Program-made: the position numbers and the translations under genes
The notes under the pieces: model-generated
The model's input: the letters and a program-made list of their open reading frames with translations, nothing else
Database searches by the model: none
What the model was told of the DNA's origin: nothing
Part shown: piece after piece, positions 5,042 to 34,340 of the stretch
How positions within the stretch are numbered: position 1 is the first letter of the stretch
How the letters are laid out: each line of letters starts with the position of its first letter
Assembly: GCA_020091685.1 (NCBI GenBank)
Contig: CM034612.1
Location: 27,210,655-27,274,654 of the forward strand
DNA from: Lutjanus erythropterus
Lineage: Eukaryota; Chordata; Actinopteri; Lutjaniformes; Lutjanidae
Direction of reading: 5' to 3'
DNA: 64,000 bases

Positions 5042-5254
5042 TACCGTATTTTCCGCACTATAAGGCGCACCTAAAAGCCTTTAATTTTCTCAAAAACCGA
5101 CAGTGTGCCTTATAATCCGATGCGCCTTATATATGGATCAATATTGGTTAATTATGGTTACCGTAGTCAGGGGGCGTCGCTGAAGTAACAGCGGTAAAAA
5201 CGGTAATGGGGAATTCCAGTCCCACACCACTTGTGTGTGTATAAAGACCCCAAA

Positions 5255-12866: not shown

Positions 12867-14116
12867 CACACACAAGGAGTGAAGACTGCTGGTGGAGACA
12901 GTAAAATGAAACAGGTGAAGTAACATTAAGATTATTCAAATTGACAATTATGCTAACTACTGTAAATGCAGTAAACCCTTGTGAGTTAAAAACCATTACT
13001 TTATCAATACACCTGATCAACAAACACAAAATGTAAGCATGAAGCCACAGATAGTTCAATCCAAAGCTGTTTGTACGTTGTCTACCTGTTTGACTCATTT
13101 TAACAGCTGTGGCAAACTAAGTTAAACTGTTGTAACCTTACTGCTGGATGAGACAAACAGCCTGTCCTCTCTGTGAATCGCCTCAGCATCAGAGGGAGGA
13201 GGACAGAGGACACGATGAATGACACTGACTGATGTCTGTCGACATTATTTCTGGCATTGCATTTTCATGTCAGGAATATGACTTACTTTATTGACATTTT
13301 AGATTTGTTTCCAGTGAGGTATTAATGAGTTTATACAGTGACTTTGCTGTTGTAAATGTTACCACTGTCTTACCATTTCAATGCAGATGGACCCAAATGC
13401 AGGACACAGACATGGAGGAAAGTGAGAAAGTGAGCGTCAAACCAGACATACTCTGTACAGGGGTGTGTGTGCTCATACATTGTACACCTACACGTTGTTT
13501 TTAATCATGCTATTGTAACCACTGGTGTCACGCCTGCGGTGTTCTGCATTGTGTTCTGGCGTTTATAATGAAGCGGCAGGAGGCAGGACTGGATCTCTGG
13601 TCTTTAGTAGCGATCTGGTGAAAATATATTCAAAACAAGTTCATCAGCTGTCAGTGTGTGACAGCAGCTCAGCTGGTCTGCTCAGCTGTCCTGACAGACA
13701 TGAAAAAGGAGACAATGAGGTTGTTAGGCTAGCTTCACAATGATCTCAGCACTCTAATGGTACCCTGACTTCTTAAAATATAATCCATTCATTCATTAGC
13801 ACTGTTATGTCTGCTGCATAACTCATTCACTTCCCTGCCTTGTGCAATACTGTATATTATGCTGTGTACAAGTGAACGGTATCTATATTGTAAATAGTCT
13901 TGTGTGAACAGTCTTGTCAAATTTAGTACTTTATATTTTAGTTTTTGTAATTCTGATGAATACATACGTGTGTGTGTGTGTTTGTGTATGTGTGCGTGTG
14001 TGTGTATATATCCTATTTTTTGTCTTATTTTATAGTATTGTCATTGTCTCTCCTTTCTCTCTGTACTGCTTGAGCTGCTGTGACATGTGAATTTCCTCGG
14101 TGTGAGATCAATAAAC
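12867..14116. other. No gene recognised; GT-rich patch
   Basis: An imperfect GT/TA run lies near 13968-14012. The open frame at 13525-13743 has no recognisable domain. Confidence 0.4.
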
Positions 14117-14506
14117 TGTCATGGTTTGGTGTTTTTGCTGGTTATTTCCTGTTTTATTTTGTACTCCTGGTCCTTCCTCATGTGTCTTGTCTTTACTTCC
14201 CGTCTTTATCCTTTTTCCGCTCTTTTCGATTGCCATTCGTTTCACTTGTCTGTCCACCTGTGTCTGATTAGTTCCCTGTCTATTTAGTCCCTGAGTTTGC
14301 TTCTTTGTCAGTTCATCGTTGCCCTTGTGTGTCATTCCGCCTTCTCCTGGTATGTCCTCTGGTGTTGGACCTTGTACTCATTTTCCTGGATTGTATTTGC
14401 ATACTTTTGTTCCTTCGTTTTCTTTATTAAACACATTTCAACTGTTTCTGCTTTGCTGTCTGCATTTTTGGGTCCACTATCTTGTTTAATTTTGACACTC
14501 ATACCA
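14117..14506 (+). mobile_element. Solo LTR, 390 bp
   Basis: It starts TGTCATGGTT and ends ATACCA (TG...CA), with a 5-bp duplication TAAAC at 14112-14116 and 14507-14511. The body is pyrimidine-rich on the plus strand. A TTATTAAA polyadenylation-like motif lies about 80 bp before the end, then CTGCATTTTTGGGTCC. It is clearly related to the LTR at 22080-22499. A Ty3/Gypsy origin is likely but not proven, as no internal region remains. The long open frames across it are compositional. Confidence 0.85.
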
Positions 14507-15335: not shown

Positions 15336-15930
15336 TGTCAGAGCCCATGTCCTGGGACTGGGTCGCCGGGGCCCCCACCGATGACTGCCACCCAAACCAC
15401 ACTGCATCAGCCCCTTCTGAACCCTCCCACGGGTGATGGGCCTACGGGAAGGCGGGCACACGTTGCTCATATGGGCTGGGCCCGCCTGGTCCCATGGGCG
15501 AAGACCTGGCCACCAGGCGCTCGCCTGCTAGCCCCAACCCTGGGCCTGGCTCCAGGGTGGGGCCCCAGTAATGCCAATCTGGGCGACATAGACGTCCCTG
15601 CTGTTATACCATTCATTGGAGGCACTGGAACCGCTCTTAGTCCGACCCGTCACCTAGGACCTGTTTGCCTTGGGAGACCCTACCAGGGGCAATACGTCCC
15701 GACAACATAGCTCCTGAGATCATTCAGGTACTCAAACCCCTCCACCACGATAAGGTGGCGGTTCAGGGAAAGGATCAGCGGTCTGTTGTGGAAAAGAAGG
15801 AGCTGAGCCGAAAGGTGAAGCTCTCAATTTACCAATCTACGTTCTACCCTCACCTATGGTCATGAACTTTGGGTCATGACCAAAAGAACAAGATTTCGGA
15901 TACAAGCAGCAAGGATGGTGCACCCAAACC
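15336..15930 (+). mobile_element. LINE fragment with inverted 5' part, inserted in integrase
   Basis: GC-rich 15336-15760 matches, in reverse complement as I recall it, the 5' leader of an abundant fish LINE that lies before its endonuclease (landmarks GGCTGGGCCCGCCTGG, CTACCAGGGGCA, CCACCACGATAAGGTGGC). From 15772 the plus strand reads ELSRKVKLSIYQSTFYP then TYGHELWVMTKRTRFRIQA after a frame change, the end of the reverse transcriptase ORF of the same LINE type. Opposite orientation of leader and ORF tail suggests 5' inversion (twin priming). The clade, RTE/Rex3-like or other, is uncertain. Confidence 0.65.
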
Positions 15931-16221
15931 AATCATGACCGACCGTGGCAAAGAATTTGTCAATAAAATAAGCTGAATTCTGAGACGTGATATTATGTTA
16001 GTACACAACACTAGGAAATAAACAACATGGTGTTTCAGAAACATGTTATGCATTTTCACATCCGTTGCTCTTATATGCTAGATAAACGTGACTTGTGTGA
16101 AAAGCTTGGCATTGTCAGAAGCTTCTGTGCACCATACCACCCGCAAACAAATGGCTTGGTGGAAAAGCTCAATGGTACAATTCAAGGGTGAAAATATACT
16201 TTGACTGTAACCTATATAATC

Positions 16222-16228
<7 letters not shown>

Positions 16229-16276
<48 letters not shown>
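16229..16276. repeat. (GT)24 microsatellite
   Basis: Pure GT run inside an intron-like gap of the integrase pseudogene, between TIQG and the next coding block. Confidence 0.98.
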
Positions 16277-16279
<3 letters not shown>

Positions 16280-16827
16280 ATGAATGACCCCCCCCAATTT
16301 CAGGGCTTTAAAAAAATGGTGCATGACCATCCAAGCAATTGGGACAGTTCCATAAAACTTACAGTGTTTGGACTGTGTACCAAAAAACAGATCAAGTATT
16401 CTCCATATTTCCTCATGTATGAAAGGGAGGCTTGTTACCTGTCTGAAATTCCAGAGAAGTGGCAGGTAAGGCATTTTCCTGCTACTTTGACAACCATATC
16501 TGTTTCTCTGCTATTCTGTCCTTGTGTTAATTTATCTACTCTACGTTACAGATAAGCGATGAACAATAAAGTGGCTGAAAATGAGAATGTTTGCATCAGA
16601 ACATCAGATCTCAAAGATGTGTAAACTAAACTGCAGGCCAACATTGAAGTGGGACAAGAGAGGATGCGAAAGAGGATGCTGTCAAGACAGGATGATGATG
16701 GTTTTCTGGTGGGGGACAGAGTGCTGCGAAAAAAATCCGGCAAGAGCAAAGAAAGGGGGGTGGGGATAGAAAGATTGATGGTTGCAAAGCTAAGCTTTTA
16801 ACTAGTCATCTTCTCCACTTGTTTCAG

Positions 16828-16946
16828 TCGTTACAGGTATCACTTCCTCGTCATTACTCATCAAAGCCTGTCTGGTTCTTAGGATTTGTACTGTGTTTCC
16901 TGACACCCAGGGCCTCTATGTTGGATTCAGACCTCCCCTTAGGTGA
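16828..16946 (+). pseudogene. Broken last exon of a P2X7-C-like gene
   Basis: After an acceptor-like TTGTTTCAG the exon begins TCGTTACAGGTAT, aligning with the last exon of the intact gene at 23899-23737 (which begins TCATTACAGGTAT). It ends in the same way: FPDTQGLYVGFRPPL then TGA. It is 119 nt against 163 nt, a 44-nt deletion that breaks the frame. It overlaps the tail of the transposase copy on the other strand, exactly as in the intact locus. The first two exons are not found here; the integrase pseudogene lies immediately to the left. Confidence 0.75.
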
Positions 16947-17927
16947 ACCAGTACACACAACTGGCGACGACCTTCTCCTTGCCTGGCTCCTCATACTGTG
17001 GACTCAGGTCCTCTGGATCTTCATCCATGTCTGGTGCCGAGTCCAGAAATACCTTTTCAAAGATGAGGTCTATCAAGTCAGCTACATATCCTGTGCAATA
17101 TTACACAAAGATTGAAGTTAAACTTAAAAAATGCATTATGTTTGTGTGTGTATTTATGTACTTTATGTACTATGTACTTTTCTTTTTTTGTTAAAACCTT
17201 TACAACAACTGTTACAGTGATACAGTAAATACAACATGTGCATGACAAATAAAAGAATGTAACACTTACAGAACGTGGGCTCAGTCTTCACTGACCCATG
17301 TGACATATTTTTACTAGTTCAAAGTAACCACAATTTCATCTGCCTGCACAGTATTTTAAGAAACGGAAACAAGATTCTTTGGTGTAAAACAAAGGATGAC
17401 GCTGTGGAAAACCTCCACAGATGAAGTCTGGTGGTGGGGCTCAGTTTTGCAACAGTCATCTTGTTATTCAGCAGCTTCTCCAGCTTGTAGAAGACAGGAG
17501 CTGCTAAAAAAAAGGACAAAAATGTTTACAATATAATATAGTACTAATAACTAATGATAGTATGTGTGATGAATTTATAAACTCAATTAAATGAATCAGT
17601 CAGCATGATTATCTTAATAAAATAATTTTGATCACTACTTAATTAGGTTTTGGTCTGTATATGAGTAACACACCTGCTGTCAGTCATTTATTCTTGTCCC
17701 TCGTTTGGTGCAGTCTGTGTGCACTGGGGGAACAGGGTGTCTTCATGTCTCTGGATGTCCTGCACATGGTTCAGGATGGAGGTCCAGTTCACCACTGTCT
17801 CTAGCCTGGTGGCTGATGAGGCTGCAGTCCAGTAGATGTGGTTTCTGCTCCGCATCCACCTCTGGATCTTCTCACAGTCCTTCTTATTGATGTTCTCTAT
17901 TTTTTTTTTTTTTTTTTTTTGAAATTC
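16939..17927 (-). pseudogene. Transposase-like multi-exon pseudogene, copy 2 (exons E-H)
   Basis: Reading leftward: exon E 17927-17674 (KDCEKIQRWMRSRNHIYW, then NWTSILNHVQDI), exon F 17503-17344 (FYKLEKLLNNKMTV), the end of exon G near 17300-17270 (VKTEPTF), and exon H 17090-16939 (DLIDLIFEKVFLD). Each aligns with the copy at 20493-23762, and the introns align too: TGTAG|GAATTTC before E, TTTTAG before F, GTAAGT after G, GCACAG before H. Damage: an A-run of about 20 inside exon E, a GC instead of GT donor after F, most of G deleted, and TAA in H. Exons A-D are not found upstream on this strand. Confidence 0.8.
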
Positions 17928-18699
17928 CTACAATTCATAGGAAACATTTATTCTTAGTAAAAAAAAAAGCCCAAATGAAAGATAAATGTGATATGTTGCA
18001 GCATTTCAAAACCACTAAGTATTGAGAATCAATTATCTCATCACATTACACTGTAACTGTAACAACACCAAGATGCTACTGAAACAATATATGCAATCAT
18101 ACACTGCTATGGGCCTAATATATTTATAATAACAGCTGATGTGTGTGTTGTCACATGACTTTATGAATTGTATTGATAGCAAAGCAAAACGGGTGTCATT
18201 ACAGACGCGTCCCTCTCTTCCTCCTGCATGTCCTGCACCCCCACTGTGTTGTTGTAATGTAATGCAAGACTACTGTTACCGTACTGTTGTCCTTTAGAGT
18301 GTGGAGAAGCACCGTAAACACTGAATAGAGGAGGGGGTGGTGTTGGCCGGAACCGGAAAAAATAAAACTTATTTTCTGATTATTTCAGTTCTTACGTTCT
18401 GAGCAAAAATAAACACAACCACATACCTGTGCTAATCACGCCTGATTTAGTCTGAACACAAGTTTCTCGACTTGATTTTGCAGCAGGTCACTACACATTT
18501 CAGGTATGAGACACTTAGCAGCTTGGTGCTAATCTAAGTTACACAGCAGGCAGAGGAGAGAGGAAGCGTCCATAACAACAGAGCCGAATCCTGCTTTGTA
18601 ATAATCCTTGTTGAAGAAGCAGTCTGAAGTAAAATGTTAGCTAACACACACACAATACTTTACCAAGTGTTGTGGGAACATTTTACTTAAAAATAAAAT
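17928..18699. other. Intron remnant of transposase copy 2, then unassigned DNA
   Basis: About 17928-18050 (minus) aligns with the intron before exon E at 21840-21918. Beyond that no similarity is seen. 18180-18360 is less AT-rich and may be another MITE end. Confidence 0.45.
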
Positions 18700-19122
18700 T
18701 AATACACTGGGTCATCTCTGGGTCAGACGAGGAGAAAAGATGAAGACTTTTGTGCTTGTTCCTGCAGCCAAAAACAGAACAGTTGGTGATGTTCTACATC
18801 TTTGTTTGTTTACTGGAGTGCCGTTAGCAAGGTAAAAACATGGCGACTGTGAGGCGGACTCACAGGGATTCAGTGGGCAGTACAGACACCCCGCATGGAG
18901 AGTGTCAGCTGCCTGGAGGAGGCGCTTCTCCCCTTTTGATGTTACATGATGAGCCAAGACTGAATGGAGCGTTTTGGCCTACAGTCACTGAAAGGTGGAG
19001 AAAGCAAGTGAGGGAGAGAGAGAGGACTGTTCTCATATTATGGGAGCCTACAGGCAGGCTGGGGACACATATTTTCACTGGAAAACCACAAAAAAGTGCA
19101 TTTTAGAATATGGGACTTTTAA
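18700..19122 (-). mobile_element. TTAA-flanked MITE (AAGTCCCATATT family), minus copy
   Basis: The right end reads ATATGGGACTTTTAA, the complement of the start of the copy at 19767. It includes TTTTTTGTGGTTTTCCAGTG and CCCCAGCCTGCCTG in reverse complement. It is a common percomorph non-autonomous DNA element. Open frames inside are not real genes. Confidence 0.7.
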
Positions 19123-19766: not shown

Positions 19767-20080
19767 TTAAAGGTCCCATATTATGCAAAATGCACTTTTT
19801 CAAGGTTTTCCAGTGAAAATATATGTCCCCGGCCTGCCTACAGACTCCCATGATATGAGAACAGCCCTCTCTCTTCTTCTCTTGCTTGCTCCCCCCTTAG
19901 GACGTCATAAGGGGGGCCTGCCTACTCTGGGCAGGCAGCACTCCCTGTGCTGTGTGTCAGTGCCGCCCACTGAAAACCTGAGAGTCTGCCTCCTGGTCGC
20001 CATTTTTTTTCCCTGCTAATGCTGCTCCGGTAAACAAAGAGGATCCATTAGAGGGCAGCTCTTCAGTGGTGGCGCCTGCA
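19767..20080 (+). mobile_element. TTAA-flanked MITE (AAGGTCCCATATT family), plus copy
   Basis: It starts TTAAAGGTCCCATATTATGC, continues GCACTTTTTCAAGGTTTTCC and CCCCGGCCTGCCTACAGAC, and fades near 20080 without a clear right end. Same family as 18700-19122, opposite orientation. Confidence 0.7.
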
Positions 20081-22079
20081 GACTCAGTCACAGTTTTAAT
20101 AGAATCACCAGACATGTCATGAGTTATTCTAATGTGCCTCTAGATGTGGATGTGTAGTTGACAATATGTTTGCTCAGATTAATGTAGTATTCAACAGTCC
20201 TGCAAAAAGTCTGTGTTATACTCAGTTATTGTTGAGACTTTTTAGACAGGTGGTGATTCAACTGTGACATTTTTGGAGGAGTTTATGCTCCATAGTTTGT
20301 GCTCTAGCTGCATTGTTGAATTGAAATGCATTGTATTGACAGGTTTTATGTTATTTTGTCCATTCGATTTATATTAGGGAGTGCTGGCTAAATAAAATGA
20401 AATGCCTTGTAAAAGTTCAACTGCATCACAAATGATAAAAGAGCTCAAACCATATAATGACTTATAACATGTTGCTCTATGTTTTTTAACAGAATTGAAT
20501 CATCCAGACCCACCCATAAAATCAAAACATATATAGTTTATGAGACCTGCATTATGGAGCTCTATGAGGTGTGCCTGGTGTGCCAGCGGGTGTGTGATGT
20601 GCGGACCAGAAGGATTGGGACATTCCGATCAGTTGAACAGCGATGTCCCCATTGTCTGTTCTAGCCAGCCTGTTCTGGGAAGTACTCCCGCCGGGAACAT
20701 CCAGCTTTCTGCAGCAGTGTACATAAGTGGAGCATCATTCTTCAAACTTGTAAGGGTAAGAAGTGTATGCACTCAGAGTCTTTGAATATAGAATGTAATC
20801 TTGTTGAATCTATAGCAGTTGGCTCATAAGAAATTACAGAAGACGGTACATTTTTTTTCCATATCATTTTTATCAGTCATCAGGTCTTCAAGGCGATGCA
20901 GCTGCAACTTTTCCAGTATGACACTTTTCAACGGCATACCAGAACCTTCATTGAGCCAGCAGTCATACACCAGTGGAAAACATCACAGGATGTCATGCTG
21001 CAGCATCTCAGTGAGGAGGAAAAAGTCATACTTGGTGGTAACATGAGGGCTGACTCTCCAGGTATTTATCTGTAACTGAAATTACAAAGTTTAGACAGGT
21101 GTTTGATTTTATGTGAAAATATTAGGGGGGTGCCATGAAACTTGGAACACCACTATCAATAAGTAGTACAATATCATATGTGGGCTTTAATAAAATTTTA
21201 ACACTATCTTAACAGGGCACTCTGCCAAGTTCGGAAGCTACATCATGATGGACCTCTAGAACAACACTGTTGTTGACATCCAGTTGCTTCAGGTGAGTGG
21301 AACGAAATCAAATAGTAATAAGGTTCTGCATTTTACTTTGGAAAATATTTGTCCATTTAACATTTTCTAATTATCTGTATCTCAGTTTTTGGTAGGAACA
21401 GAGCAATGAGGTTGGTGGTAGCTACCACATGGAGAAAGAGGGTCTCAAGAGGAGCCTGGCATTGTTGGATGCACGTGGTGTGACGCTGGATTGCATTATC
21501 ACCGACCGTCATCCACAAATCCAGAAATTCTTGAGAGAGGCCAACATCACCCCTTACTGTGACGTCTGGCACATGGAGAAAGGTATATTTCTTTATTTTC
21601 ATGTGCCAACACGAAACACATGATCAAAACTATTTACCTGCATGGGTGATAAGTTTTTACTTAGAAAAAGCACATTGTAGCAGTGGCCAAGCCACACATA
21701 TAGTAGCTGTTACTACAAATGTATTAGGCACACAACAGTGTATGATTGTATATAGTGTCTAAGAAGCATATGAAAGATGCTTGGTTATAGTGTAATTCTT
21801 TGAGACAATTGAAAACTAATACTTGCTGATTTGAAAATACTGCACTGCCCATATATCACTCAATTTGTCTTTCATTTGGACTTTTTTACTAAAAAGAAAT
21901 GTTTCATATGAATTGTAGGAATTTCTAAAAAAGTGGAGAGGATCAGTAAGATGAAGAACTGTGAGAAGTTACAGAAGTGGATGCGGAGCATCAAAAACCA
22001 CATCTACTGGACTGCAGCGTCATCAACCCCTCTGGGCCAGAGAGAGTGGCAAAATGGACCTCCATCCTAAACCATGTAC

Positions 22080-22499
22080 TGTCATGGTTTTGGGTTTTGT
22101 TGATTTCCTGTTTTATTTTGGTAGTCTTGGTTCTCCCTCATGTGTCTAGTCTTTACTTCCTGTCTTTGTTCTTTTTCCCGCTCTTTTTGATTGTCATGTC
22201 TTTCACCTGTTTGCCCACCTGTGTCTTGTTAGTTGCCTCTGTTTAGTCCCTGTGTTCCTCAGTGTCTTTGTCAGTTCGTACTTGTTGTCCATGTTTGTCA
22301 GCCTGCATCCCATTTGTCTCCCTTCTGGACGTTTTTTTGAGTTTGCCTTTTGTGGATCCTGTTTTCTTGGACTTTGGATTTTACCTCCATGCACTCAGTG
22401 TAAGCCTTTGTTTCTGTTTTATTTAATTAAACCTTTTTTGAACTGCTCTTCTCCATCTTGCGTCATCTGCATTTGGGTCCTCCTTGTTAAACTACAACA
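22080..22499 (+). mobile_element. Solo LTR, 420 bp, inserted in transposase exon E
   Basis: TGTCATGGTT...CTACAACA with the 5-bp duplication TGTAC at 22075-22079 and 22500-22504. A TTAATTAAAC polyadenylation-like motif and CTGCATTTGGGTCC lie near the end. Counting only one copy of the duplication, the flanking exon reads NHV on the left and QDIHMHEDP on the right in one frame, so the integration point is exact. Related to 14117-14506. Probably Ty3/Gypsy; no internal genes remain. Confidence 0.92.
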
Positions 22500-23373
22500 T
22501 GTACAGGACATCCATATGCATGAAGACCCTCTTTTCCCCAAGTGCACACACAGACTGCACCAGACAAGGGACAAAAATAAATGGCTGACAGCAGGTGTGT
22601 TGCTCGTATACAGTCCAAAACCTTATCACAATTCATCTTTTTAAAAGTAGTGATCAGAATTATTCTATAAAGATAAAACAAATCACTCCATTAATTAGGT
22701 TTAGAAATGCATCACGCATACTGTCATCAGTAATCAATACTGTTTTCTATTGTAATCATTTTTTATCCTTTTTAGCAACTCCTGCCTTTTACAATCCGGA
22801 GCAGGTGCTGACCAACAAGAGGACTCTGAAGGATGTCACACCATGTCATCTGTGGAGGCTTTCCACAGTGTCATCCTTCATTCTGCCCCAAAGAATGTTG
22901 TGTTTCCATTTCTTTGAATGCTATGCAGGTAAATTAAACTGCGGTTACTTAACTTGTGAAAATGTGTACAGTTTGTCATCATTTACATGTTTGATTTTCT
23001 GTGTACTGTACTTCCAGACTCTACCTGGCTGCAATGTATTACAATGAAAACGGTAACAGACCACAAGCCACAACATCTGGCGGACACCCACTCTTCAAAG
23101 TGCACTTCTAAAGCCATAAGGGGAGCAATCACAGCAAAACCAGTGAAGACAGAGCCAACGTTCTGTAAATGTTACATTCTTTTAATTTTTATCCAAAAAA
23201 TTGTATGTACATGTTATGTACTATTGCACTGTAACAATTGTTGGAACTCACACAAAAGCTGAAAAATCAGTCTTACAAAAATAAAATAGAAAAAATACAA
23301 ACAAAATGCACACATATCAAAAAGGTCTTTGCACACCTGACTGTATGACGGATGCATCAGAGGAAGATTCAAC

Positions 23374-23524
23374 TTGAAGAAAATCAGAAAAGACTCCTAC
23401 ACACTGTTTCGCTTTCTGTTGATTTATTAAATATGACGTTTTGGTCTGGATGACCTTCCATCAGGAAAATGTTGGATATTTAATATATCAACAGAAAGCG
23501 AGAGTCTTTTCTGATTTTCTTCAA
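23374..23524. mobile_element. Foldback element in an intron of transposase copy 1
   Basis: Perfect 23-bp inverted arms (23374-23396 and 23502-23524, ending ATTTTCTTCAA), with more pairing inside around TTTCTGTTGATTTATTAAATAT. The loop carries GACGTTTTGGTCTGGATG, like the centre of the foldback at 48707-48882. It lies between exons G and H. Confidence 0.75.
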
Positions 23525-23736
23525 AATGCACACATAAAAATTTAAAAATCTAAAAATCTTTGTGAAATATTGTACAGGATGTGTGGCTGACTTGATGGAC
23601 CTCATCTTTGAAAAAGTCTTTATGGACCCTGCACCATACATGGATGAGGTACAGAGGATACCCATTCCAGAGGACCTGTGTGCACAGTTTGAGCATCCAG
23701 ACAAAGAGAAGGTCATTGCCAGCTACGTGTCACGGT

Positions 23737-24739
23737 TCAACCAAGGGGAGGTCCAAATCTGACATAGCGGCCCTGGGCGTCAGGAAACTCTGTGCGAATC
23801 CGCATCACCACACAGGCAGGAATGACGACTCTTATTCTCCGTCCAAGAACGCCCCAGCACCAGCTAACAAAGTCCTGATACGCCAGATACCTGTAATGAC
23901 TACAACAATTGGAAAACATGTCCTGGCATTGCAAATATCAAACTCTAGTGTGTCTCAGTCTTATTCATATGGATTGAGTGAATCCTTTAGTTTTTTGTCA
24001 TGGATAGGTCCATCATTTAAAATATTATTAAGTTTTGATATATGTGATAATCAATAAATGCTTTACTTTATCTGTAAAAATTGTCCCCTGTTAAGTCATG
24101 TTAAATACGCACAGTATCTGTTTATTTTGGCTGTGTTTGTTCATTCATGGTGTTTTTGTGATCACTGTAATGTTATGAACCCTGAATGATCGTGAAGCAA
24201 ACTGCAGAATCTTGAATATTTCTTTTCTTAAATACAATGATTACAATATGATTACATCTAAACTCACATATTGAAACTATTAGGATTTTTAAAAAGCACC
24301 TACTGTTCTATTCCTCTGAGCTGTAGAGGAATATAGTCAGCTCGGTAAATGTTGAAAGCGTTCTGCAGGGAGAACACATTGAGGCAGACGGGGTCCAATC
24401 CAGGATTTTCAACCACACATGATAAATCTTCCTCAACCTCCTGCATCCGTCTTGTAACCTACCGTAAGACACAAAAGTAGGGATCATGTTATCTAACAAA
24501 TGTAATGGGTAAACATAAGAAATAGCCTAGTCAGACAAGTATAGGATAATATGCAGTGACCATGTCAGTCTTGTGAAATAAACCCTGACAGGACCATGTT
24601 TTTAGCCTAAATGTCAACTGTAACCTCTCAGACCTGATCCTCGTGCACACACCTGAAGCAGGTACACAAGCTCTTGCCCAAGTGGCGCAGCTGCAGCAAA
24701 GAAATGATGATCCTCTTCTATGTCGAAGTCCTCAGACAT
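23737..24739 (-). CDS. Intact 3-exon gene for a P2X7 C-terminal-domain-like protein
   Basis: Exons: 24739-24653, 24458-24304, 23899-23737; 134 codons plus TGA, no internal stop, phases matching. Donors are CTTCAG|GTGTGT and AACA|GTAGGT; acceptors are CGGTAG| and TTGTAG|. The start MSEDFDIEED has A at -3 (GAAAATGT) and an acidic N-terminus. Exon 2 (about residues 30-80) has LSCVVENPG and FNIYRADY. Exon 3 has YRYLAYQDF, VIPAC, RIRTEFPD and GRYVRFGPP. This follows the pattern at the end of the P2X7 receptor cytoplasmic ballast domain (AYR...W..G...LPSC...RIRKEFP...GQY..F), which binds zinc and guanine nucleotide in P2X7. The Cys-rich WCQCG-type segment and all channel parts are absent. No signal peptide or membrane segment; probably cytosolic or nuclear. 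Function unknown. It overlaps the transposase pseudogene tail to tail by 26 bp. Confidence 0.75.
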
Positions 24740-24990
24740 TTTCTTCTTTGTTGAAAGTTTGCGAAGTCAACTCTGCGCATAACAAATCACTATTTCTAAG
24801 CAGATCTCTCTCTGTTGTCTGAGTCGCTTCCAGTTAGCATGTAAACACAGATGCGAAGGTATTGCGAGATCTCGTATATCTCGTGTCACACCGCTTGGGT
24901 TAGAGCCTGTGTACCTGCTTCAGGCGTGTGCACACGGATCAGGTCTGAGCGGCTACAGTTGACACTGGCTACATTTAGGCTAAAAACATG
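24597..24990. repeat. Inverted repeat around exon 1 of the P2X7-C-like gene
   Basis: Left arm about 24597-24672, right arm about 24903-24990, about 85% identical, both containing TTTAGCCTAAATGT, ACCTGATCC and CCTGAAGCAGGTACACA or complements. The left arm contains the 3' part of exon 1 with its donor. The right arm holds a second, plus-oriented copy of that exon end with a changed donor (CTTCAG|GCGTGT). The 230-bp centre holds the start codon and probable promoter. It may be an inverted duplication or the element's terminal region. Confidence 0.75.
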
Positions 24991-25199
24991 GTGTAAATGG
25001 CGTCTTTTTGGGTTAGATTTTAATGTCACGGCTTACAGACACTTGGATTACACATTTACATTACATACATTTTAAAACTGCTCACCATCCACTTCAATTG
25101 TACTGGATTTGGCTGCAACACTGTTTTCCGCTGAAGCTCTGGGAGTATTTGTGAACTAGAGATCTTCACCCATCCTCACATCAGCACAGGGGTGAGTAG

Positions 25200-25584
25200 T
25201 GTTACAGCCTGGCTCAACAGCTGCAACACATAGGGAGACAGACACGAGGTGGCGGGCTGAAGAACTTAATTTTTTTAACAAAATACTCAGGCAAATCAAC
25301 AGAACGTGTAGGAAATCAGTGGATCAGTGGTATAGTGCAGGTATGGGTGTATGTGGACATGTGTGTGTGTGTGTGGAAGAAACAAAAGAAAACGGCATGC
25401 TGGTCTCATGCTGCTGAGGTGTTGTCTGTCTGGGTGCTGGCAGGAGAAGAGAGACTGTAGGCTGTGGCAGCTATTTGAAGGAGGGAGCACACCGGGCCCA
25501 GGTGTGACCCATCCTTCTAATGACCCTCCTGCAAAGAGAGAGAAGAGCAGCAGCAACTAGTGGCAGGGAGGAGGGGGCGTCACA
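25200..25584 (-). mobile_element. Solo LTR-like sequence, 385 bp
   Basis: TGTTACAGCC...GGCGTCACA with GTAG on both sides (25196-25199, 25585-25588), so a TG...CA element with a 4-bp duplication. Orientation is tentatively minus because the left-end part resembles a polyadenylation region in reverse complement. GT-rich at 25360-25376. No coding. Confidence 0.55.
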
Positions 25585-26000
25585 GTAGATATTGAGTGAA
25601 ATTTCATCTTTGGGTGAACTATCGCTTTAATGGTGTCACTAGCTTGATTTGAATGTTTGTGCACAAAGATGATCATGAAGGTGAATCATTTGTGCTCTCG
25701 TTTGCATCCTTCAGATGACTCTCCAGGTCTTGGAGTTCTGACGCGTGGTCACTGGCTTTATCTGAAGTGGTGTCCCATTAGTGGATCCAATAGCAGTTTG
25801 AATCTCTTATTTCCATGAGCGACTGAAGCCCTTTCTTTCAGAATTCTCGGATAAAGCGAAGTGAGTACAGATGTTGTATGGTAATGCAATGTTTTTTTTT
25901 TTTGTTTTTTTTTACCAAACAAAAACCTGTGTGAACAAACTTGTTAGATGATTAATTTGACCTAATAGGGTTGCACAGTTGCTATGCAACTTCATACCTT
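25585..26000. other. No gene recognised
   Basis: Short T-runs and GGGTGAACTATCGCTTTAA-like sequence at 25611, which resembles the end of a MITE. Confidence 0.35.
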
Positions 26001-26155
26001 GAGGCCTGTACCATAAAGCAGGACTTTGGGTTATAAACATGCTTGTAGCCCAGATAGGAAAACTTCATAGTGCAGGTTATCCAGGACAGCCAGTGTTAGG
26101 TTAAGTGAAGTCACTTAACAAAAAGATAACCTGAGTATGTTGAGCTTGCAACACC
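26001..26155. mobile_element. MITE fragment (GGCCTGTACCATAAAGC)
   Basis: Starts GAGGCCTGTACCATAAAGCA and carries GGTTATCCAGGACAGCCAG, similar to a common fish foldback-type MITE. The other end is missing. Confidence 0.4.
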
Positions 26156-26197
26156 ACCTTCATTATTACAAGTCAATAAAATTAAGAGACCACTTAC

Positions 26198-26366
26198 TTT
26201 CCTCTGACAGAGATGGTTTAACCAATACCTGCAGTGGGACTTTGTTCAGCCTACACACTTGGTAGTCTGGGTAGATCTTCCCCTTTGGCTTCCTCTTTTC
26301 AGAAGTCTTTCGTGGCCTTTCTTCTGAACAGCTCAATTCAGCAGTGGTCATGAAATCATCTTTCAT
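26198..26366 (-). pseudogene. Exon-like open frame with a strong splice donor
   Basis: From ATG at 26366 the frame reads MKDDFMTTAELSCSEERPRK, then a basic KRKPKGKIYPDYQ stretch, and reaches SLSEE before a consensus donor (GAGGAAA|GTAAGT). I do not recognise the protein. It is 3' of the unrecognised coding remnant at 26903-27320 on the same strand and could belong to it or be chance. Confidence 0.3.
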
Positions 26367-26902
26367 ATTCCTTTATTATCTTAAAGACATTATTATAATC
26401 AGGTGTTATAGAATTAATAATATAAGTACAGATAATGTAAGATTGAGATAGTGTAGGATCACTTGCACACAAAGTCAAAAATTGGTGAATAACAAACTGA
26501 AATCTGTCTGGCCCTAATGGATTCTGATTACAGCTGTGCAATTACAGCATGTGCACAAAATTATAATTATATACCTGATAGAACTTTAACTTTCATCAGA
26601 GGAAATTACATCCATCCATTTTTGCAGAGTTTGAAGGTCTTTTTTGATCATTGATCAGACCAAGATACCCAACCACTGTTCCAACAGGATGGTGTGACTT
26701 CCTCCATGTCTGCAGTATGAAAGCTGCCATCATAATAAATATTGCTCTCCTGTGGTGATGTGGGATTTTCATTATTGCACATTATGGTTTGCAAAGAATA
26801 TGGTGACATTTTGTGACATCTGTGCATTATTAAATAGATAAGAGGATACTGGTAAAATATGATATTGCAGTAATAACAGACACGTTAGAGAGGGGTTAAG
26901 TA
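26367..26902. other. No gene recognised
   Basis: AT-rich sequence between two minus-strand exon-like frames; could be an intron. Confidence 0.35.
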
Positions 26903-34029: not shown

Positions 34030-34340
34030 ATTGATTTTATTATCGATTAATATGTTGATCATTTTCTCTATTAATCATTAAGTGTTTGGCCTATTAAATG
34101 TCAGAAAATGGTGATAAATGTTGATCATTGTTTCCAAAAGTCCAAGATAACGTCTTCAAATGTCTTCTTTTGTCCTCAGCTCCTAGTTATTTGGTTTATT
34201 GTTAGAAGTAAAGAAACCAGAATATGTACCCATTTAAGAAGCTGGAATCAGAATCTGGACATTTGGAAAAAAAAAGTTGTAATATTTAAAAATGATTAAT
34301 TGATAGTCAATTAATAATTGATTAATCATTGCAGCTCTAG
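34030..34340 (+). mobile_element. hAT-like MITE, plus copy of the 800-1126 family
   Basis: ATTATCGATTAATATG near the start, ATGTCAGAAAATGGTGATAA, TTTAAGAAGCTGGAATCAGA, and ATTGATTAATCATTGCAGCT at the end. Better preserved at the right end than the copy at 800-1126. Confidence 0.75.

Follow-up and report, generated by a model that had tools for sequence, protein, structure and literature searches.

The locus was identified as very probably a Kolobok DNA transposon copy of Kol0 type, now dead, in which exons 2 and 3 of the KolX gene are left and from which no working KolX is expected. In this explanation, the open frame of the two exons is a survival by chance. The coordinates given below are those of the window, i.e., the whole 64,000-nucleotide stretch of DNA that was analysed. 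According to PMC9587614 (2022), two proteins are encoded by Kol0 elements, a transposase and KolX, of which the latter has the P2X7 ballast fold and seven zinc cysteines; Kolobok elements use TTAA and 5'-RR ends. The P2X7 tail and nanor both likely derive from KolX according to the same source, and the mobile-element link of the P2X7-C-like gene is already known there as KolX of Kol0 Kolobok. Stand-alone ballast (ZCD) proteins across animals were described in PMC7016195 (2020), from the main text of which the terms 'transpos', 'mobile' and 'retro' are absent. The present locus is a fossil of a known kind and, as a locus, an ordinary one, being a single decayed copy. Neither of the two proteins can be made in full by this copy (copy 1).

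KolX exons and the P2X7 C-terminal domain

The minus-strand gene and its overlap with the plus-strand transposase gene comprise the following features:

23737 to 23899, minus strand: KolX exon 3, authentic (tblastn with P0001, 74.5% identity, E 1.7e-22; alignment of relatives)
24304 to 24458, minus strand: KolX exon 2, authentic (tblastn with P0001; alignment of relatives)
24653 to 24739, minus strand: exon 1 as first proposed, without KolX homology and probably a chance open frame (alignment, protein search, chance-frequency test)
23737 to 23762, both strands: 26 bp shared by both coding regions (stop-codon positions)

The sequence-only reading had joined three minus-strand exons (24739-24653, 24458-24304 and 23899-23737) into 134 open codons, had placed a 26-bp tail-to-tail overlap with a transposase gene at their end, and had likened the product to the C-terminus of P2X7, and all three observations were reproduced. 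The phases agreed and the splice sites were GT/AG. The overlap followed from both stop codons, which lie at 23739-23737 (KolX, minus strand) and 23760-23762 (transposase, plus strand); the KolX stop is antisense to the codons for Phe and Asn in the final VSRFN of the transposase, as the codons were read by eye. In a Pfam scan, the 134-residue product matched P2RX7_C (PF20478) with E=5e-12 and 46.6 bits (cut-off 23.5), the match being confined to positions 105-191 of the 192 profile positions. Four PDB sequences of P2X7 were also matched (E 5e-5 to 5e-4). P2RX7_C was the sole Pfam match of the 134 residues, and the P2X channel domain was absent from them.

A search that reached protein lengths of about 74-234 residues returned 24 related proteins of fish type. 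The homology of the 15 relatives that were aligned was limited to exons 2 and 3, and the identity of these exons to the stand-alone fish proteins was 54-68%. The tblastn match of P0001 to the exon 2 region was 66% identical over 24458-24273, a range that includes intron residues (E 8e-23). Thirteen of the 24 relatives are named P2X purinoceptor 7 or 7-like and one (P0016) is named nanor; the former naming would mislead readers of the databases. A fragment of the gene for a P2X7 receptor, or a P2X7 duplicate that had been retained, would share the C-terminal domain with the window product. However, the stand-alone fish proteins were matched at the above identities, whereas P2X7 itself was matched at E ~5e-5; the homologous part is split over two exons here and occupies one (exon 13) in P2X7 as described in PMC7016195; P2RX7_C stands alone among the Pfam matches; and the gene is associated with a transposase. 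This origin has next to no probability, being already contradicted by the identity, exon structure, Pfam and transposase results.

Transposase gene and element ends

The plus-strand gene, the 5' ends of the element and a second copy nearby (copy 2) were delimited as follows:

19767 to 19793, plus strand: 5' terminus of copy 1, TTAA followed by AGGTCCCATATTATGC, where the inter-copy homology begins
19107 to 19122, minus strand: 5' terminus of copy 2, TTAAAAGTCCCATATT, where the inter-copy homology begins
20497 to 23762, plus strand: transposase gene of copy 1, broken, corresponding to residues 216-700 of P0025 (tblastn with P0025, P0026, P0027 and P0050)
22078 to 22497, no strand assigned: insertion in the transposase coding region, missing from copy 2 (comparison of the copies)
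16930 to 18787, minus strand: remnant of the copy 2 transposase, including a remnant of the THAP region at 18574-18787 (inter-copy comparison, tblastn)
16807 to 16946, plus strand: what remains of KolX exon 3 in copy 2, tail to tail with the transposase of that copy (tblastn, inter-copy comparison)

The decayed plus-strand transposase gene with varied damage that had been read from the letters was borne out. Four exonic frame switches (near 20660, 22030, 22837 and 23108), two stops and one exonic insertion were present, and part of the insertion (22078-22300) is a dispersed repeat that is 79% identical to 14115-14334. The read-through of the gene, with X at the breaks, had 518 related proteins at E up to 0.001, and the species named among the best 120 of these were fish. 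The closest protein matches point to a bony fish as the host. No Pfam family was matched by the read-through. A THAP domain was found in all three transposase relatives tested, one of which passed the Pfam cut-off for a Mutator-like transposase. The THAP part of copy 1 gave no match in tblastn with residues 1-215 of P0025; near 20045, a few residues resemble P0025 around position 180 by eye. In copy 2, 18787-18574 matched residues 9-79 of P0025 (tblastn). A near-perfect hairpin with arms of 23 and 26 nt occupies 23374-23524, probably within the last transposase intron.

The window retains the catalytic D, D and E, each of which is present in 14 of the 15 aligned relatives. The H of DxxH is kept in the window and in 11/15 relatives, and is missing in P0025, P0026, P0030 and P0054. 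In the presumed zinc finger, which precedes the last E, C and H are invariant in the window and the 15 relatives. Hence, with residues assigned by eye from the signature described in PMC9587614, the DDD/E triad, the C/DxxH motif and the zinc finger of the Kolobok superfamily were all found in the read-through. Judged from its sequence, the plus-strand gene encodes a transposase of Kolobok type and is broken; the putative assignment of the locus to Kol0 draws on KolX, the second protein.

Both copies open with TTAA-RR-GTCCCATATT (19767 on the plus strand and 19122 on the minus strand), and the inter-copy homology at the ends pairs 19767-19898 with 19122-18991. The terminus pattern was derived from the two copies, by which construction they match it exactly. 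The RR dinucleotide is AG in copy 1 and AA in copy 2, in keeping with the 5'-RR feature of Kolobok. TTAA was seen at both 5' ends; paired TTAA was not seen, the 3' end of neither copy being found. A search of up to three mismatches for a 3' or further terminus gave only one chance-level match at 5252. Elsewhere in the window, ten other open frames had no match in a Pfam scan, and a 93-nt inverted repeat (983-1075 and 34083-34175, 33 kb apart) was 85% complementary.

The failure to find a 3' terminus counts against the dead-transposon explanation, as do the H of DxxH missing in 4/15 relatives, the read-through without a Pfam family and the one Mutator-like relative. The undamaged exons 2 and 3 and the few second-position differences to copy 2, described below, also count against it.

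Pairing of KolX and transposase

The two copies (16807-19122 and 19767-23920) stand head to head with their TTAA ends ~645 bp apart, and their DNA identity is 74-78% over the three longest blocks. The KolX stop of copy 2 was read at 16944-16946. Just before this remnant, plus-strand stretches at 15900-16470 resemble a retroviral-type integrase by eye. Three of the 24 database frames related to KolX run past the KolX end into antisense transposase, with matches at 23709-23545 for P0021 (E 5e-15), 23703-23575 for P0006 (E 0.001) and 23677-23603 for P0023 (E 5e-4). The next residues in these three frames are W and T by eye, as expected if TGA had changed to TGG before ACN.

Chance might have placed a fragment resembling KolX tail to tail with a transposase to which it is unrelated, and the complete element was indeed not seen at the locus, nor was its 3' terminus found. 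However, the same arrangement in copy 2, the three database frames that continue from KolX into antisense transposase, and the two-protein element published in PMC9587614 make such a chance neighbourhood extremely unlikely. Because copy 2 repeats the layout and the three frames read into antisense transposase, the pairing of KolX and transposase is not accidental. The earlier suggestion of an accessory gene of a mobile element is thus upheld by the P2RX7_C match, the layout of copy 2 and the antisense database frames, and has already been published, under the name KolX, for Kol0 Kolobok (PMC9587614).

In a live element, as its layout suggests, each end would drive one gene inward and the messages would end tail to tail. 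KolX would then be an accessory protein encoded beside the transposase. The Myb-like helper of Harbinger elements offers an analogy for such a role. By this analogy, KolX may be a zinc-stabilised helper of the transposase, acting in protein or DNA contact or in nuclear delivery, a proposal whose chances are evenly balanced.

First exon of KolX

The minus-strand gene had been called intact. In full-length relatives, the coding sequence starts with an exon carrying WCxCxxC...CC, and among the 24 related proteins WCxCxxC was found in 13 and CC, in an ENxCCxE-like setting, in 19. Both motifs precede VTRR, and it is at VTRR that exon 2 of the window begins (15 of the 24 relatives aligned); P0022 seems by eye to retain an unspliced intron before VTRR. 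When three such cysteine-bearing exons were compared with the whole window by tblastn, only chance matches were obtained (best E 0.68). When the minus strand was scanned for the motif over 24459-26500, one CTCFRC was seen near 24666, with no W before it and no CC after it. The 134-residue product has four cysteines versus nine in P0001, none of the four matching the five first-exon cysteines of P0001, and the full set of seven zinc cysteines described in PMC9587614 was not found in it.

The proposed exon 1 did not replace the missing one. A protein search with residues 1-41 of its frame, among proteins of about 135-428 residues, turned up one candidate but no match with an E value of 10 or less. 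Of the 1008 splice-site combinations tried, 84 likewise led to an open frame running into exon 3. Moreover, an exon that starts with ATG, spans 29 codons or more and ends at a phase-0 GT was present in 565 of 928 arbitrary 500-bp stretches of the window (61%) and in 813 of 920 1-kb stretches (88%). The in-phase fit of the proposed exon 1 is therefore no evidence for it, because chance exons as good are common. Since the authentic first exon was not found and the proposed one is not homologous, the KolX gene is not intact; its homology starts at exon 2.

The end of the proposed exon 1 is overlapped by an inverted repeat (24593-24685 and 24891-24992), whose arms are 82% identical and ~205 bp apart. 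No target-site duplication was recognised by eye at this repeat. It is very unlikely that the proposed exon is real and was captured from the adjacent repeat, giving a new ballast-domain protein without N-terminal cysteines. If this were true, the locus would show a newly formed chimeric gene still next to its source.

Tests of selection on exons 2 and 3

Both exons are undamaged, and their splice sites are usable. At the rate of the transposase gene (7 damages in ~485 codons, counted by hand and with the missing THAP part left out), ~1.5 damages are predicted in the 105 KolX codons; none was observed, which has a probability of about one in five (P ~0.22). The conserved columns were counted with 15 of the 24 relatives, P0012, P0015 and P0018-P0024 being left out as short or odd. 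The window copy departs from 7 of the 57 columns conserved at 85%, the third highest number among the 16 sequences (relatives 0 to 9), and only P0016 and P0017 depart at more. At columns invariant in all others, the window copy differs at 2/27 and the relatives at 0 to 4. The differences between exon 3 and copy 2, in an alignment that is partly gappy, numbered 13/39 at first, 5/39 at second and 12/41 at third codon positions. The lower number at second positions fits constraint, which may date from the time when the element was active. These tests of selection are all weak; only the codon-position test leans towards constraint, and none demands retention. The loss of the first exon is itself disabling.

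A gene retained by the host would be a KolX kept after the death of the transposon, perhaps with a new adjacent first exon, and nanor-like without N-terminal cysteines. The 134 open codons with GT/AG sites are in line with such retention, as are the two undamaged exons beside a transposase with seven damages, the second codon positions being least different from copy 2, the changes at invariant columns inside the range of the relatives, and nanor, which is described in PMC9587614 as a likely domesticated KolX. However, the zinc-cysteine first exon was not found in the window, the proposed exon 1 has no protein match and a fit that is common by chance, the absence of damage has P ~0.2, and 7/57 conserved columns are changed. 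Retention by the host is hence considered unlikely. The sequence-only reading had allowed that selection maintained the gene once the element was dead; with the cysteine first exon and the 3' terminus not found and the tests weak, this part was not sustained.

Comparison with known systems

The raw sequence backs what was stated in 2022, namely that fish genes encoding a P2X7 tail on its own are part of Kolobok transposons. The layout is also given here at base level: convergent genes, a 26-bp overlap, and a KolX stop antisense to the last conserved motif of the transposase. Like the ballast domain of P2X7, the window product has Pfam P2RX7_C and the RIRxEFP...G.Y..F series; unlike P2X7, it is without the channel part and is split by an intron. 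Nanor and the stand-alone ballast proteins share the same domain without the P2X part (PMC7016195). Nanor, however, is a complete gene, whereas the window copy lies beside a dead transposase and its cysteine exon was not found. According to PMC9587614, a few piggyBac families carry a KolX-like C-terminal part without most of the cysteines. The window copy is also without most of the conserved cysteines, but its neighbour is of Kolobok type with 5'-RR ends, which sets it apart from the piggyBac proteins as described there. The window copy differs from KolX of Kol0 Kolobok (PMC9587614) in the loss of the first exon, where most of the zinc cysteines lie, the broken transposase and the 3' terminus that was not found, and is like it in encoding a ballast-domain protein beside a Kolobok transposase and in having TTAA and RR at its 5' end.
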